This document shows, piece by piece, positions 41,583 through 49,307 of a stretch of DNA of 64,000 bases. Made by a program: the position numbers and the translations under genes. Positions within the stretch are counted from its first letter, which is position 1. Each line of letters begins with the position of its first letter. This stretch comes from Verrucomicrobiota bacterium (lineage in GTDB: Bacteria > Verrucomicrobiota > Verrucomicrobiia > CAIQCK01): NCBI GenBank assembly GCA_016222825.1, contig JACRQF010000006.1, positions 62,001 through 126,000 on the forward strand, given 5' to 3'. A model generated the notes under the pieces. The model worked only from the letters and a program-made list of their open reading frames with translations, did not search any database and had not been told where the DNA came from.

Positions 41583-42581
41583 ATGAACAAAGTCAGAGTC
41601 GCCGTCATCGGTTTGGGTTGGTTTGGAGAGAAACATTGCGAGGCGCTGTCGGGCATCTCGCACGTCGAGCTTTACGCGCTCTGCGATGTCAACGAGCCGC
41701 GGCTGAAGGAGGTCGCGAAGACATTCGGCGTTGCGAAGACCTACACCGACTACAACAAACTTCTCGCCGACCCCAACGTGGACATGGTCAACGTCGTGAC
41801 GATGTGGGACCAGCACGTCGCGCCGACGGTCGCGGCGCTCAAGGCAGGCAAGCACGTGTTCCTGGAAAAACCGATGGCTTCGTCCGTCGCCGACTGCGAG
41901 AAGATCGTGAAGGCGACCAAGGCGACGTCGAAGTTCTTCACGGTCGGCCACATCTGCCGGTTCAACCCGCGCTACGCCGCCGCCAAGGCCGCCATCGCCG
42001 AGGGCAAGATCGGCAAGATTGTCTCGATGTATGCGCGGCGGAACATCCCCGCCTTCGTCGGCGCCTCCGTGCTGCCGAAGATCGGCCCGATCATCGGCGA
42101 CGGCGTCCACGACACCGACCTGATGCTCTGGTATTCCGGCGCGAAGATCGTGTCGGCCTACGCGCAGTCGGTCAACGTCCGCAAGCTCAAGAACCCCGAC
42201 CTCGGCTGGACGATGTATCGCTTCGACAGCGGCGCGATCGGCGTGCTGGAGGACACGTGGTTTCTGCCGGACACGACGGCGTTCCAGATTGACGAGCGGA
42301 TGGAGATCATCGGCACCGAAGGCTCCATCCACATCCACGAGACGCATCCGAATTTCTCCATCGTGGACAAGACCGGCTGGCACTCGCCTGATACGACCTA
42401 CTGGCCGCTGTTGCACGGCGTGCGTGCCGGCGCGTTGCGCGAAGAACTGAGCTACTTCTCCACGTGCGTGCTCGAGAACCGCAAGCCCACCGTCATCACG
42501 GCGGAGGAATCAGCCGCCGCCGTGCGCGCGTGTCTGGCAGCGGAGAAGTCGGCCGCCACCAACAAGCTTGTGAAGCTGTAG
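41583..42581 (+). CDS. Gfo/Idh/MocA oxidoreductase, cytosolic
   Basis: VRVAVIGLGWFGEKHCEALSGI; GKHVFLEKPMASSVADCEKIV. Confidence 0.92.
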   Translation: MNKVRVAVIGLGWFGEKHCEALSGISHVELYALCDVNEPRLKEVAKTFGVAKTYTDYNKLLADPNVDMVNVVTMWDQHVAPTVAALKAGKHVFLEKPMASSVADCEKIVKATKATSKFFTVGHICRFNPRYAAAKAAIAEGKIGKIVSMYARRNIPAFVGASVLPKIGPIIGDGVHDTDLMLWYSGAKIVSAYAQSVNVRKLKNPDLGWTMYRFDSGAIGVLEDTWFLPDTTAFQIDERMEIIGTEGSIHIHETHPNFSIVDKTGWHSPDTTYWPLLHGVRAGALREELSYFSTCVLENRKPTVITAEESAAAVRACLAAEKSAATNKLVKL

Positions 42582-42584
42582 GAA

Positions 42585-42619
42585 TTGGTGACTTGTAACT
42601 GGTGATTGGTGATTGGGAT
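42585..42619. repeat. Left 7-bp-period repeat array of cassette 1 (TTGGTGA-type)
   Basis: TTGGTGA CTTGTAA CTGGTGA TTGGTGA TTGGGAT. Confidence 0.85.
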
Positions 42620-42626
42620 CGGACAG

Positions 42627-43079
42627 ATGGAAGCCGCGGCCAAGACATACAAGAGCTTCGAACGACTGGAGGTTTACAGAACCGCCAGGGAGTTTCGGAA
42701 GAAGATGTATGACGTGGTAAAGCGGTTGCCTGAGGCCGAGAAATACGGTCTCGCTGGCCAGATTAGAAGAGCCGCCGTGTCAATCACCAACAACATCGCC
42801 GAGGGCCATGGGCGCTATCATTACCTCGACAACATCCGGTTCCTGCTGCAAGCGCGCGGCTCCTTGGCGGAGCTGATGGATGATTTGAACGTCTGCCTCG
42901 ACGAAGGGTATCTACCGCCAGCAGAAGTCGAAGAATTGAAGACGGAGAGTTTTTCAGTTTACAGGCTCGTCAACGGCTACATCCGTTACCTGCGCGAGCA
43001 GAAGGCCGGTGCCAACCTGCAAATCCATGAATCGTTCCCGCCCTACGGTGCCGAAGTTCTCGACGAGGTTTCCGTTTGA
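42627..43079 (+). CDS. Four-helix-bundle protein (S23 / bAvd-like family)
   Basis: FERLEVYRTAREFRKKMYDVVKRLPEAEKYGLAGQIRRAAVSITNNIAEGHGRYHYLDNIRFLLQARGSLAELMDDL. Confidence 0.92.
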   Translation: MEAAAKTYKSFERLEVYRTAREFRKKMYDVVKRLPEAEKYGLAGQIRRAAVSITNNIAEGHGRYHYLDNIRFLLQARGSLAELMDDLNVCLDEGYLPPAEVEELKTESFSVYRLVNGYIRYLREQKAGANLQIHESFPPYGAEVLDEVSV

Positions 43080-43135
43080 CCAATCGCAAATCACCAGTCA
43101 CCAATTACCAGTTACCAATCACCAACCACCACTCC
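43080..43135. repeat. Right 7-bp-period repeat array of cassette 1, inverted relative to left
   Basis: CCAATCG CAAATCA CCAGTCA CCAATTA CCAGTTA CCAATCA CCAACCA CCACTCC. Confidence 0.9.
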
Positions 43136-43136
43136 C

Positions 43137-43481
43137 ATGAAAGAATTCCATCATCTCGGATTGCCCACCGACGACGAACAACCCGGCGAGACCTACGTGC
43201 CCGCCAGCAAGGTCTGGGTCACTGACCCGCTGAAGCACAAATACAAGGTCGAGTTCCTGCGCTTCGAGCCGGATTCGCCGGTCAAAGGCGTCGTCCGCGA
43301 CCTGCCGCACTTCGCGTTCCGCGTGGACAGCATCAAGGCCGCCACCGCGGGTGAGAAGATCGTGCTCGGCCCGTTCGAGGCGATGCCAGGGCTGACGGTC
43401 GTGTTCATCGAGAAAGACGGCGCAGTTTACGAGTTCATGGAGTTCGCCGCCCAACCTGGTGCTACCTCGTGGGGCAAGTAA
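43137..43481 (+). CDS. VOC/glyoxalase-like protein
   Basis: MKEFHHLGLPTDDEQPGETYVPASKVWVTDPLKHKYKVEFLRF; LPHFAFRVDSI. Confidence 0.65.
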   Translation: MKEFHHLGLPTDDEQPGETYVPASKVWVTDPLKHKYKVEFLRFEPDSPVKGVVRDLPHFAFRVDSIKAATAGEKIVLGPFEAMPGLTVVFIEKDGAVYEFMEFAAQPGATSWGK

Positions 43482-43497
43482 TCAACAAGGAGACACT

Positions 43498-44664
43498 ATG
43501 AGACTGAAACCACTTCCATCCACCGAATACGCCGGCCGCATCACGCGGCTCCAAGCCGAAATCAAGAAAGCCGGACTCGACTGCTTCGTCGGCTACAGCA
43601 GCGAGAGCGAGACCGGCACCACGCGTTACCTCGCCGGCTTCTGGCCGTTCTTCGACTTCGCCGGCATCATCGTCCCCGCCGAGGGGAAGGCGGTGCTCAT
43701 CACCGGCGGCCCGGAGTCATTTGAGTTCGCCAAGAAGTTCTCCAACGCGCCGGAGATTCGCATCAACCAGCTCTTTGTCGAGACGAGCGCACCGGAATGG
43801 GTGCCACAGGTTTCCGGCGAGAGCTTCAAGACGCTCCTGCCACGCGCCTGCGGCGGCACGCCGAAGCGCGTCGGCGTCGCGAACTGGAACATCTTCCCGA
43901 AGATGATCTTCGACGACCTGCAAGCAGCGGCGCCGAAAGCGGAGTTCGTTCCCGCCGACGACCTCTTGTTGCGTGTGCAGATGATCAAGACCGACGCGGA
44001 GATTCCCTACATCGCCGAGGCCTATCGCATCACCGAGGAGGCGATGAAGGCCGCGCTCCGGGCCGCCAAGCCCGGCAAGCGCGAATGGGAACTCGAAGCC
44101 GTCGCGCGCTCGAAGATGGTGCTCGCCGGCGCCGAGGGCATGAGCTATCCCGCGTGGGTCTGCTCCGGCCCGACCACGCCGCTCAGCCTCTGCCGATCGA
44201 CCGACCGCGCCATCAAGACGGGCGACCTCGTCCAGTTCACGTTCGGCGCGAAATACATGGGCTACTGCGGCAATATGTGCCGGCCGTTCGCCATCGGCAA
44301 AATGCCGAAGCCCGCGCGCAAGCTCGCCGAGGCCGCGCTGGAGGCAATGAACTACGCCATCGCGAACATCCGCCCCGGCGTGCGCGGCTGCGACATGTTC
44401 GACGGCTATCACAAGATCCTGTCGCGCTACGGCTACGAGAACTTCACGCTCTACGGCCCGGCCCACGGCACGGGTAGCAGCGAGGTCGAGGGCCTGTGGC
44501 TCTCCAAGAGCGCCGACTTCGTCATCCAACCAAACATGCTCTTCAACGTGGACATCTGGCTCAGCGACGGCAAATACGGCATGCGCTATGAGGACGGCGT
44601 GCTGGTGACCAAGACCGGCCTGCGCGAACTCAACAGCTACCGGCGAGAGGTGATCGTGTTGTAA
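43498..44664 (+). CDS. M24 family Xaa-Pro peptidase
   Basis: EEAMKAALRAAKPGKREWELEAVARSKMVLAGAEGMSYPAWV; GPAHGTGSSEVE. Confidence 0.8.
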   Translation: MRLKPLPSTEYAGRITRLQAEIKKAGLDCFVGYSSESETGTTRYLAGFWPFFDFAGIIVPAEGKAVLITGGPESFEFAKKFSNAPEIRINQLFVETSAPEWVPQVSGESFKTLLPRACGGTPKRVGVANWNIFPKMIFDDLQAAAPKAEFVPADDLLLRVQMIKTDAEIPYIAEAYRITEEAMKAALRAAKPGKREWELEAVARSKMVLAGAEGMSYPAWVCSGPTTPLSLCRSTDRAIKTGDLVQFTFGAKYMGYCGNMCRPFAIGKMPKPARKLAEAALEAMNYAIANIRPGVRGCDMFDGYHKILSRYGYENFTLYGPAHGTGSSEVEGLWLSKSADFVIQPNMLFNVDIWLSDGKYGMRYEDGVLVTKTGLRELNSYRREVIVL

Positions 44665-44670
44665 AGCAGA

Positions 44671-44730
44671 GGGCAAAATCATAAGGGGCAAAATCATGGG
44701 GAATATGATTTTGCCCAACATGATTTTGCC
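44671..44730. repeat. Left repeat array of cassette 2 (15-bp spacing, 2 forward + 2 reverse copies)
   Basis: GGGCAAAATCAT at 44671 and 44686; ATGATTTTGCC(C) at 44705 and 44720. Confidence 0.95.
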
Positions 44731-44747
44731 AAATCCGTTCGCCAGTT

Positions 44748-45557
44748 ATGCCGATTGAACCGCAAACCGAGATTCGGGTGTTCAATCAGGAGCAATTCCA
44801 CGCCATCGACCGCCGCATTCTGGGCGTGATCTTCGAAGTGCATAACGAGTTCGGCCGGTTCTTGGATGAACTGCTGTTCAAACGGGAGATTGCAGCCCGC
44901 TGCTTGGAGCGCGGTATTTGTGCGGCAGAGCGCGAGGTGACCATTCGCGTCAGCCACGACGGTTTCGCGAAGGATTACTTCATGGACCTGCTGTTCGATC
45001 ACGGCTTGATGGTCGAAGCCAAGACCGTCGAGAAACTCGGCCCGTCGCACCGGCAGCAGACACTGAACTACCTGTTCCTGACCGGCATGCAGCACAGCCG
45101 TTTGGTCAACCTCCGCACCGACCGAGTCGAGCATGAGTTCGTCTCCACGAAGCTAACGGCGGCACGGCGCCGCGTCTTCTCAGTCGTGGATGACGAATGG
45201 CGAGACGTGAACACGGAAAGCGCGTGGCTGAAAACCAAGCTGATTGAACTGCTTCAAGACTGGGGTGCGTTCCTCGAAGTGTCGCTCTACCGCGAGGCCA
45301 TCACATGTTTCTTGGGCGGCTCCTCCGTGGTCTGCCGGCCCGTATCGGTCCTCAGCGGTTCAAAGTCCATCGGCAACCAAACAGTTCACCTGCTGACCGA
45401 CGACACGGCCTTTGCCTTCACCGCAGTGACAGCCGCGCGTGACACGATGCGTGACCACCAGTTGCTCTTCCTACAACACACGCCGCTCAAGTGCATTCAA
45501 TGGGTAAACTTCAACCGCCACCGCATCGAATTCACAACACTCACAAAGGACAAATGA
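44748..45557 (+). CDS. GxxExxY-family protein (PD-(D/E)xK-like) with C-terminal extension
   Basis: RILGVIFEVHNEFGRFLDELLFKREIAARC; DLLFDHGLMVEAKTVEKLGPSHRQQTLNYLFLTG. Confidence 0.88.
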   Translation: MPIEPQTEIRVFNQEQFHAIDRRILGVIFEVHNEFGRFLDELLFKREIAARCLERGICAAEREVTIRVSHDGFAKDYFMDLLFDHGLMVEAKTVEKLGPSHRQQTLNYLFLTGMQHSRLVNLRTDRVEHEFVSTKLTAARRRVFSVVDDEWRDVNTESAWLKTKLIELLQDWGAFLEVSLYREAITCFLGGSSVVCRPVSVLSGSKSIGNQTVHLLTDDTAFAFTAVTAARDTMRDHQLLFLQHTPLKCIQWVNFNRHRIEFTTLTKDK

Positions 45558-46882
45558 AACAAGACAATCTCTCAAAACATGATTTTGCCCCCCATGATTT
45601 TGCCATCTCCGCCATCCGCTCTGCCGTCAATTGCCGCGCCGACGAGATCGTCGCGTGGACGAAGAAGTTCGTCAGCTTCCCCAGCGAGAACCGTCCGCCC
45701 GACGGCAACGAAGCCGCCGCGCAGAAATGGGTCGCGGCAGAATGCCGCAAACGCAAGTGGCAGGTGGATGTCTTCTCGCCGCTCGCCGTGCGCGGTATCC
45801 GCAAGCATCCGTCTTGGCTCGAAGGCCGCAACTACCCGAAAGGCCGCGACAACGTCGTTGCGCGCTGGCACGGCACTGGCGGGGGCAAAGCGATCCTTCT
45901 CAGCGGCCACTGCGACGTCGCGCCGTTCGAGCCGGACAACTGGAAGATTTGCCGGCCCTACAAGCCCGTCGTGAAGAACGGCCGGCTCTACGGGCGCGGT
46001 TCCGCCGACATGAAGGGCGGCCTCGCCGCGATGTTCTGGGCAATGCGCATCCTGCAAGACCTCGGCTTCCGGCCCGTGGGCGACATCCTGTTCGAGAGCC
46101 TCGTGGACGAGGAATTCGCCAGCGGCAACGGCACGCTCGCCGCGCGCCTGCGCGGCCACAACGCCGACCTCGCCATCGTCAGCGAGCCGACGCGCATGGA
46201 AGTCAGCCCCGCGTGCCTCGGCGCGTTTCTCGGCGACCTCACGCTCACCGGCAAGGGCGGCATGGCCTACATGGGCAAGGCCATCGCCAACCCGATGAAC
46301 GGCGCCGCCCGCGCCATCGAGTTGTTCCAAGAGTGGCAGAAGGCGTGGCGCGCGCAGAACAGCCACGCGCTCTTCACCGCGCCCGGCAAGCAACTCAACG
46401 TCCTGCCGTGGCACGTCACGACCGACAAGCCCGGCGAGTTCACGCAGATGGGCACGCCGCTGCTCGCGAAGATCGCGTGGATCGTCTGGTGTCATCCCGG
46501 CATGACCGAAGCCGAGTTCTACCGCCGCTTCCGCAAGTTCTGGAAAGAGCACGGCGCGAAAGATGCCGCGCTCCAGCCGTTCGAGCTGACGCTGGAACGC
46601 GCCTACCACTACGTGAAACCGTGGGAGACGCCCACCGACAGCGCCGCCGTGAAAGCCGTCGTCTCAGCTTTTGAGCGTTATCGCGGCGACAAACCCGGCA
46701 TCGGCGGCGCGGCGTTCTCGTGCGACCTCGGCATCTACGGCGAAGTCGGCAAGATGCCCTCCATCCTCCTCGGCCCCCGCGGCGACCATCTGCACGCCCC
46801 CGACGAGTGGGTCGAGATCCAAGACCTCCTCGACCTCACCGGCATCTACGCGACGTTGGCGGCGGAGTGGTGCGGAAGATAA
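45554..46882 (+). CDS. M20-family peptidase/deacylase
   Basis: FVSFPSENRPPDGNEAAAQKWVAAE; LLSGHCDVAPFEPDNWKICRP; GRGSADMKGGLAAMFWAMRIL. Confidence 0.9.
   Translation: MKQDNLSKHDFAPHDFAISAIRSAVNCRADEIVAWTKKFVSFPSENRPPDGNEAAAQKWVAAECRKRKWQVDVFSPLAVRGIRKHPSWLEGRNYPKGRDNVVARWHGTGGGKAILLSGHCDVAPFEPDNWKICRPYKPVVKNGRLYGRGSADMKGGLAAMFWAMRILQDLGFRPVGDILFESLVDEEFASGNGTLAARLRGHNADLAIVSEPTRMEVSPACLGAFLGDLTLTGKGGMAYMGKAIANPMNGAARAIELFQEWQKAWRAQNSHALFTAPGKQLNVLPWHVTTDKPGEFTQMGTPLLAKIAWIVWCHPGMTEAEFYRRFRKFWKEHGAKDAALQPFELTLERAYHYVKPWETPTDSAAVKAVVSAFERYRGDKPGIGGAAFSCDLGIYGEVGKMPSILLGPRGDHLHAPDEWVEIQDLLDLTGIYATLAAEWCGR
45579..45604. repeat. Right repeat pair of cassette 2 (15-bp spacing)
   Basis: ATGATTTTGCCC at 45579, ATGATTTTGCC at 45594. 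Confidence 0.95.
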
Positions 46883-48457: not shown

Positions 48458-48691
48458 GTTTGTGTCGCGCCGAAGGCGAAGCTGAGATCGGCGGCGCTGA
48501 CTTCGCCTTGCGGGCCTTGCGGCTTTGCTCACGGGTGACCCTTTTTGCGGCACGGGATGGCGTCAATTTCCTCTTTCAAAGCGACGAAGTTCTGCCAGAC
48601 CTCGGCGGCATCTATTTTGGCGCCTTCGCGGGGCACATTCGGGTCAGGTTCCATACAAACATGTCCAATCATGGCCTTTAGCGATTCCAAG

Positions 48692-48901
48692 GCCGGCTCA
48701 CGAGTCTCCTGAGCCGGCTCAGGAGTGGGCTAGGCCGGCTCAGGAGTGTCCTGAGCTGGCTCAGGCGGGAGCCAGGCCGGCTCAGGAATGTCCCAGGCCG
48801 GCTCAGGCGGGACGTGAGCCGGCTCACGAGAGTCCTAGGCCGGCTCAGGTGTGTCCTGAGCCGGCTCAGGCGACTATTTGGCCGGCTCAGATGTCTCGGA
48901 G
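48692..48901. repeat. Tandem array, exact 21-bp period, 10 units, GCCGGCTCAGG-variable half
   Basis: Units start at 48692, 713, 734, 755, 776, 797, 818, 839, 860, 881 with no indels. Confidence 0.97.
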
Positions 48902-49307
48902 GAACCGCACGGACGCCCCCGGAAGGCGCTTGGTTTCGGATTGACGATCCGGGCCGTTGTCTTCTTCAGGCTGCTGATGCGCTTGGCAAACCGAGGTTTG
49001 AACTCCAACCATCAATACCCAAAAACACGGAAGCCCTGTCGCGCAGGCGCGAGCGAGGACTTTCTTGTGGCGCGCGGACGGCGGGCGGTGGCAGGCTGCG
49101 CATGGTGACTGCCATGAGACACATCCTCACCCTTATTGCCCCGCTGCTGGCTCCGCTGACCGCGTCAAATGCCGCTGAACCAATTTCCCACGGCACTAGG
49201 TCCATGCCCCGCATCATCTACAACGGCGACGGGTTCAACTTCCTCACGCTCGGTGACGACCTCGGCGTGAAGGATTTGCGGGCCTGCCTCTCGCGGTTGC
49301 GCGGCAG

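Follow-up and report, generated by a model that had tools for sequence, protein, structure and literature searches.

Among described systems that combine short inverted repeats with a gene, the REPIN/RAYT elements are short, palindromic and intergenic, consist of inverted pairs, and are associated with a single gene while many copies in the same genome carry none (PMC3116915, PMC8266576). The intervening sequence (IVS) of Coxiella 23S rRNA encodes an IVP-like S23 protein within a 28-bp terminal stem that is cut by RNase III (PMC4990558), and the Rpn nucleases (PF04754, transposase_31) have been linked with RecA-independent DNA transfer (PMC5350276). GxxExxY proteins are predicted nucleases of a different Pfam family from Rpn; they are abundant and annotated by motif only, and no paper describing their function or any associated arrays was found in the literature searched, an absence that is no proof of novelty.

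The cassette examined here lies in a 64,000-nucleotide stretch of Verrucomicrobiota DNA (the window) and works most like REPIN/RAYT, yet it fails two of the tests that define that system, the HUH enzyme and the tag. As in REPINs, its short repeats form inverted doublets that are present in many copies and lie for the most part outside genes. In contrast to RAYTs, the array-bounded gene encodes a predicted PD-(D/E)XK protein rather than an HUH-tyrosine (Y1) transposase, and the genome's Y1_Tnp genes are located at other sites. The arms are built from a 7–11 bp motif repeated two or three times in tandem, and the 8 nt inspected in each of 58 arm flanks never contained the GTAG/CGTC tetranucleotide. 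We rejected RAYT-driven repeats as an identity for the element, since the Y1_Tnp genes examined are not array-flanked. The 23S rRNA IVS is similar in placing a small gene between inverted repeats and in being sporadically present, and a neighbouring insertion, cassette 1, encodes a protein of the same family as the IVS. However, cassettes lie between protein genes, the cassette studied here (cassette 2) encodes a different protein family, and its arms consist of motif arrays whose spacers do not pair; a 23S rRNA intervening sequence was therefore rejected, cassette 2 being located between M24 and M20 peptidase genes and outside any 23S rRNA gene. Insertion sequences and MITEs share terminal inverted arms, a single gene and gene-less derivatives, but differ in that no known transposase domain is present, the arms are motif arrays, and no target duplication is seen (the empty sites are diverged).

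Architecture of the cassette and its predicted protein

The features of the locus, in window coordinates, are as follows.

42606–43079, plus strand: four-helix-bundle IVP gene of cassette 1, with inverted arrays of ~7-bp units on both sides; an independent insertion in the same operon
43459–44664, plus strand: upstream host gene of the M24 metallopeptidase family (Pfam Peptidase_M24, 1.6e-40; from the ORF list), contiguous with the M20 gene in related genomes G001 and G002
44671–44697, minus strand: left outer arm, two ATGATTTTGCC units 15 bp apart with a variable spacer
44705–44730, plus strand: left inner arm, two plus-strand units, which with the outer arm form a complete hairpin resembling the dispersed gene-less ones
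44748–45557, plus strand: GxxExxY gene encoding 269 aa, the long form with two domains
44787–45146, plus strand: predicted N-terminal PD-(D/E)XK half, residues 14–133, with invariant E41, D80, E90xK92 and Q104xxxY108
45213–45545, plus strand: C-terminal half, residues 156–266, with the helix and strand order of the N half in the model and without the catalytic residues
45554–46882, plus strand: downstream host gene of the M20 peptidase family, whose ATG start overlaps the GxxExxY stop (ATGA)
45579–45604, plus strand: right arm, a pair of units in plus orientation, which the M20 reading frame takes in as HDFAPHDFA at the protein's N-terminus

A first-pass annotation of this DNA had described a GxxExxY gene between M24 and M20 peptidase genes, bounded by six repeat copies with a pair spacing of 15 bp, and domain matches bear out that placement. 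In the window sequence, the copies lie exactly where it had put them, at 44671 and 44686 on the minus strand and at 44705, 44720, 45579 and 45594 on the plus strand. The spacing within a pair is always 15 bp, made up of the 11-mer ATGATTTTGCC and four variable bases, and the 12th base is A rather than C in the copies at 44720 and 45594. Single 12-mers are not rare in the window (9 matches with up to 2 mismatches, vs 4.5 expected). The outer copies do form inverted terminal arrays, as had been claimed, since the left and right outer arms make a 31-nt inverted repeat that matches at 90%. The simple picture of a gene plus arrays required amendment in two respects: the gene is the two-domain long form, and the arms are asymmetric, with two inverted pairs (the full hairpin) on the left and a single pair on the right. 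When folded as RNA, the left hairpin reaches −35.5 kcal/mol (z −8.4); no Rfam match was found in 42400–46000.

The GxxExxY identity of the gene was confirmed by Pfam (E=4e-18) and NCBIfam TIGR04256 (E=6.5e-18), with both family cut-offs passed (TIGR04256, 65.2 bits vs 35; PF13366, PDDEXK_3, 66.3 vs 22). A confident structural model (pLDDT 94.9, pTM 0.90) contains the helix and strand order H-H-E-E-E-H-E-E twice, and the invariant residues of the N half have a RecB/Cas4-like arrangement. Sequence search returned no solved relative. The nearest solved structure is the Cas4 protein SSO0001 (Z 8.9, 99 residues aligned, rmsd 2.9). We therefore predict, from the model, a tandem PD-(D/E)XK fold in which the N half retains all catalytic residues and the C half lacks them, with cleavage inferred. 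The two halves are collinear by hhalign (E=0.006, with a probability of only 6%), and their origin by duplication is likely but not proven. By inference, short members of the family would form homodimers, to which the long form, live in one half and dead in the other, would correspond as an asymmetric pseudo-dimer. Pfam detected no known transposase domain in the array-bounded gene, and no Y1_Tnp match. The window protein has no match among PADLOC models, and a known anti-phage defence system was rejected on this ground; a short relative gives a marginal AbiEii match in PADLOC (E=0.0035) and only a weak CRISPR-associated match in PHROGs.

Insertion between operon genes

The ancestral state of the junction was read from M20 orthologues in five related genomes (G001, G002, G003, G004 and G006). 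In G001 and G002, which belong to the same genus, the M24 stop and the M20 start overlap by GTGA (CTGTGAACAC) with nothing between them, an empty site of the kind that the first-pass annotation had suggested looking for. The same cassette is present in G004 at 93% identity. Judged from these comparisons, the GxxExxY gene is an insertion between the M24 and M20 genes. On its left, the insertion site is bordered by the M24 stop codon. In relatives the M20 start is a GTG that overlaps this codon, whereas here M20 begins at a new ATG. The stretch 44671–45604 is read as an insert at a junction of operon genes that left neither host gene broken. The junction has the appearance of an insertion hotspot, with an unrelated 125-bp palindrome, GTCGCGTCACTCCGTGACGCG, occupying it in G003 (L038) and a different small ORF in G006 (L036).

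Comparison with the G004 copy gave a dN/dS of 0.15 for the GxxExxY gene, with 0.12 for M20, and on this ratio the gene is under purifying selection. The window's genome (G000) and G004 agree at every unit base (66 of 66), although the gene has diverged by 8% and one of the spacers has changed at all four of its positions.

Sites of insertion differ by genome (radA, fabD-fabG, M24-M20 and ade), with annotated cassettes placing the gene between radA and a gene for an FAD-dependent protein, or between fabD and fabG. Cassettes lie inside operons and are often codirectional. G085, a genome of another genus, has a short GxxExxY cassette that is lacking from 11 of its 15 sister species, in which the conserved flanks lie together on one contig; in the remaining four the flanks are on different contigs. 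At the same site, the sister-species loci L282 (G122) and L297 (G389) carry gene-less inverted arrays of other units, e.g., CTTGAAGGTTGAAACGTGAAACCTGAG. The nearest empty sites are 8–15% diverged, too far for a target duplication or the precise junctions to be made out; divergence likewise defeated attempts with G001–G003, with hairpins nested in other repeats, and with a sister genus.

The first-pass annotation had also placed a first cassette in the same operon. That cassette holds the IVP gene and is itself a presence/absence insertion with 7-bp arrays of its own: G001 and G002 lack it, whereas G003 has it with longer arrays and a different number of 7-bp repeats. With its arrays, it spans 42585–43130, with units GGTGATT and AATCACC. 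For IVP loci in the class (n=30), the median inverted-repeat score, defined below, was 36.5 vs 19, and most of them have arrays with differing units, ~7–8 bp by eye. Such an architecture points either to a parallel system or to arms that are not tied to nuclease chemistry.

Arrays and motifs across the GxxExxY family

In a class-wide search, 135 of 384 genomes contained GxxExxY relatives, some of them of a distinct long form (~267 aa), and 22 further named loci were taken from Verrucomicrobiota, Kiritimatiellales/Pontiellaceae and Planctomycetota. When the flanks were read, inverted arrays surrounded almost every relative, each with its own unit. Inverted repeats were scored between 300 bp on one side and 300 bp on the other, with swapped flanks as the control. 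The median score of 36 long loci, which include at least two same or near-identical pairs, was 44.5, compared with 19 for swapped flanks; 31 of the 36 lay beyond 95% of the control and 23 beyond 99%. In a later sample of short loci, 19 of 20 exceeded the 95% control and 16 of 20 the 99% control. Neighbouring genes at the same loci (n=28) had a median of 19 and a maximum of 29, with none of the 28 scoring above that value. No arms were found at the Rhodopirellula maiorica locus L146. Eight GxxExxY genes from plasmid records (Bacteroidota, Gemmatimonadota, Pseudomonadota, Fusobacteriota and Spirochaetota) were also scored, and three exceeded the 95% control (36, 45 and 113 vs 26.5); several others have looser repeats by eye. 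Inverted arrays are general for the GxxExxY family. IMG/VR and phage records contained no relative of the protein, and a viral or phage origin was rejected for this reason.

The repeat unit varies between loci but tracks the protein subfamily. The theme of long-form arms is GGYARAAnAT, in two units ~15 bp apart, and that of short-form arms CRCnnA, usually in three units 9–11 bp apart. A strict form of the long motif occurred in 15 of 62 long flanks and in no distant, short or IVP flank. The strict short motif occurred in the expected orientation in 15 of 40 short flanks and in none of the 40 in the opposite orientation, and was absent from 80 distant flanks and from long and IVP flanks. Both expressions were composed after many of the same loci had been viewed, making this a description rather than a blind test, and they cover only a minority of flanks, so that what they show is specificity and not completeness. 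Loci with more similar proteins also have more similar arrays (Spearman 0.39, P=2e-4), a correlation equally expected from shared descent of gene and arms.

Arrays concentrate in genomes that carry the matching gene. The arm type of G170 has 8 sites there and that of G354 has 7, gene-less copies included in each case; both types have no site in the other 16 of the 17 genomes, and each of the two genomes carries a gene matching its own arm type. The window's arm type occurs chiefly in G000 and the family to which that genome belongs; variants of it were seen in a few further genera, among them that of G350, whose own gene has such arms. Arrays were also found without a matching long gene, in G003, G005, G006 and G330, and their retention therefore does not require the gene.

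The spaced pair ATGATTTTGCC-N4-ATGATTTTGCC occurs 26 times per strand in the 6.6-Mb G000 genome (≤3 mismatches), or at ~52 sites, and not once in a reversed control of that genome. Most of these sites are gene-less hairpins, commonly of exactly 50 bp (15 of 29), in which two minus and two plus units meet at the center. On crude ORF calls they are mostly intergenic, 6 of 19 falling inside an ORF compared with 80% of random points, and several are absent at the corresponding positions in relatives. The spacer GGCT is frequent in one arm, and the copies therefore seem to derive from a single asymmetric element. Spacers on opposite sides of the stem lack complementarity (1.16 of 4 bases vs 1.54 when shuffled, P=0.98), from which it follows that the conserved feature is the unit and not a continuous stem; a continuous RNA stem as the selected feature was thus rejected. 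Despite the unpaired spacers, the hairpins fold strongly (z −3.9 to −8.4).

The first-pass annotation would have been refuted if GxxExxY homologs generally lacked arrays, or if the repeats belonged to an unrelated dispersed element. Neither applies: homologs generally have inverted arrays with a unit particular to each locus, and the repeats, while dispersed, are related to the gene, the gene-less hairpins concentrating with a matching gene at the level of genome or genus. Its interpretation is supported on both counts, with binding or cleavage of DNA by the protein only inferred.

Proposed mechanism and alternative explanations

We propose, with a probability of roughly 0.6, that the locus is a mobile cassette which encodes its own motif-recognizing nuclease, and that the gene-less hairpins are its non-autonomous copies. 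What this proposal has behind it is the insertion, the general association with arms, the motif that tracks subfamily, the concentration with a matching gene, the predicted fold and the purifying selection; movement itself, binding, cutting, and the role of this protein rather than another in driving movement are inferred. That the cassette is mobile is, taken alone, a highly probable part of the proposal. The action of GxxExxY itself on the arms is the weaker link, for which there are no binding or cleavage data.

Under the proposed mechanism, the inverted arms, each with two 11-bp motif copies 15 bp apart, would enclose one gene, and GxxExxY would be the element's own nuclease, with its N-terminal PD-(D/E)XK half cutting DNA. 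The motif pair of an arm would be the recognition site, and the protein, probably as an asymmetric pseudo-dimer, would bind the pairs at both ends, or may instead act on the hairpin folded in single-stranded DNA. Nicking by the bound protein would free or copy the element, which would then be joined at another intergenic site with the help of host repair. The enzyme would also mobilize the 50-bp gene-less hairpins in trans, in the way that RAYTs move REPINs.

The arms might instead be mobilized in trans by another enzyme, such as an HUH Y1 transposase, leaving GxxExxY as a passenger or a later-domesticated gene trapped between two hairpins. Four Y1_Tnp-like genes are present in the genome, hairpins far outnumber the GxxExxY gene and in some genomes are all that is present, and the IVP genes have the same architecture; that this architecture is common to an unrelated family may count against arms that depend on a nuclease. 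However, loose matches to the unit number 1, 0 and 0 at the three Y1_Tnp loci examined, the REPIN tag is missing beside the arms, and a passenger leaves unexplained a motif class that tracks subfamily across phyla. We regard movement by another enzyme as unlikely.

Another possibility is that the arms act in RNA, pairing in the transcript around or beside the gene so that RNase III cuts there and the operon is insulated from its insert, as in the 23S rRNA IVS. Strong folding, the Coxiella precedent (PMC4990558) and the location of cassettes within operons, often codirectionally, are in keeping with such a role. The non-complementary spacers, on the other hand, indicate selection on the unit sequence, subfamily conservation covers that sequence and so extends beyond pairing alone, and the gene-less hairpins are dispersed, making a function in RNA a distinctly improbable basis for the arms. 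Finally, a homing or defence-like selfish nuclease with incidental arms (e.g., regulatory sites or scars) would suit the nuclease fold with its Cas4-like nearest structure, the sporadic presence and the conserved gene, but is very improbable given insertion sites that differ per genome instead of one homing site, the lack of a PADLOC match for the window protein, and hairpins that it leaves unexplained.

A wider hypothesis, to which we would give even odds, extends the mobile-cassette proposal to the whole family: a large class of bacterial mobile cassettes, so far undescribed, would have GxxExxY proteins as its enzymes, PD-(D/E)XK nucleases that recognize short tandem motif arrays and insert themselves and gene-less hairpins at operon junctions. 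The low-complexity repeats around short genes (CACRGAGG, CACGGATT and CGCGGATG) would then be arms, and the IVP four-helix proteins a parallel system. If the arms are the substrate, the family gains a function, as mobility nucleases, and widespread unexplained intergenic repeats gain an origin; REP-like elements would have a further enzyme class beside the HUH transposases. A compact nuclease whose recognition motif is legible from each genome would be both directly testable and useful, and the cassettes bear on how operons take in new genes without polar damage.

Three further repeats were noted. At L190 (G354 contig 13), a gene-less TCAGGAAAATT hairpin lies inside a unit of ~320 bp that is present twice in tandem. 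In the window, the ORF at 48525–48944 contains a low-complexity repeat of PAQECPRPAQ-like units, possibly another tandem array read as protein. Another dispersed repeat, GCGGAGAATGGYCCCGAAGCCGGACGCGAAAGGAATG, is found in G000 and G001 shortly upstream of several apparent gene starts (e.g., L153, L166, L168, L170, and L180 at about 1500).
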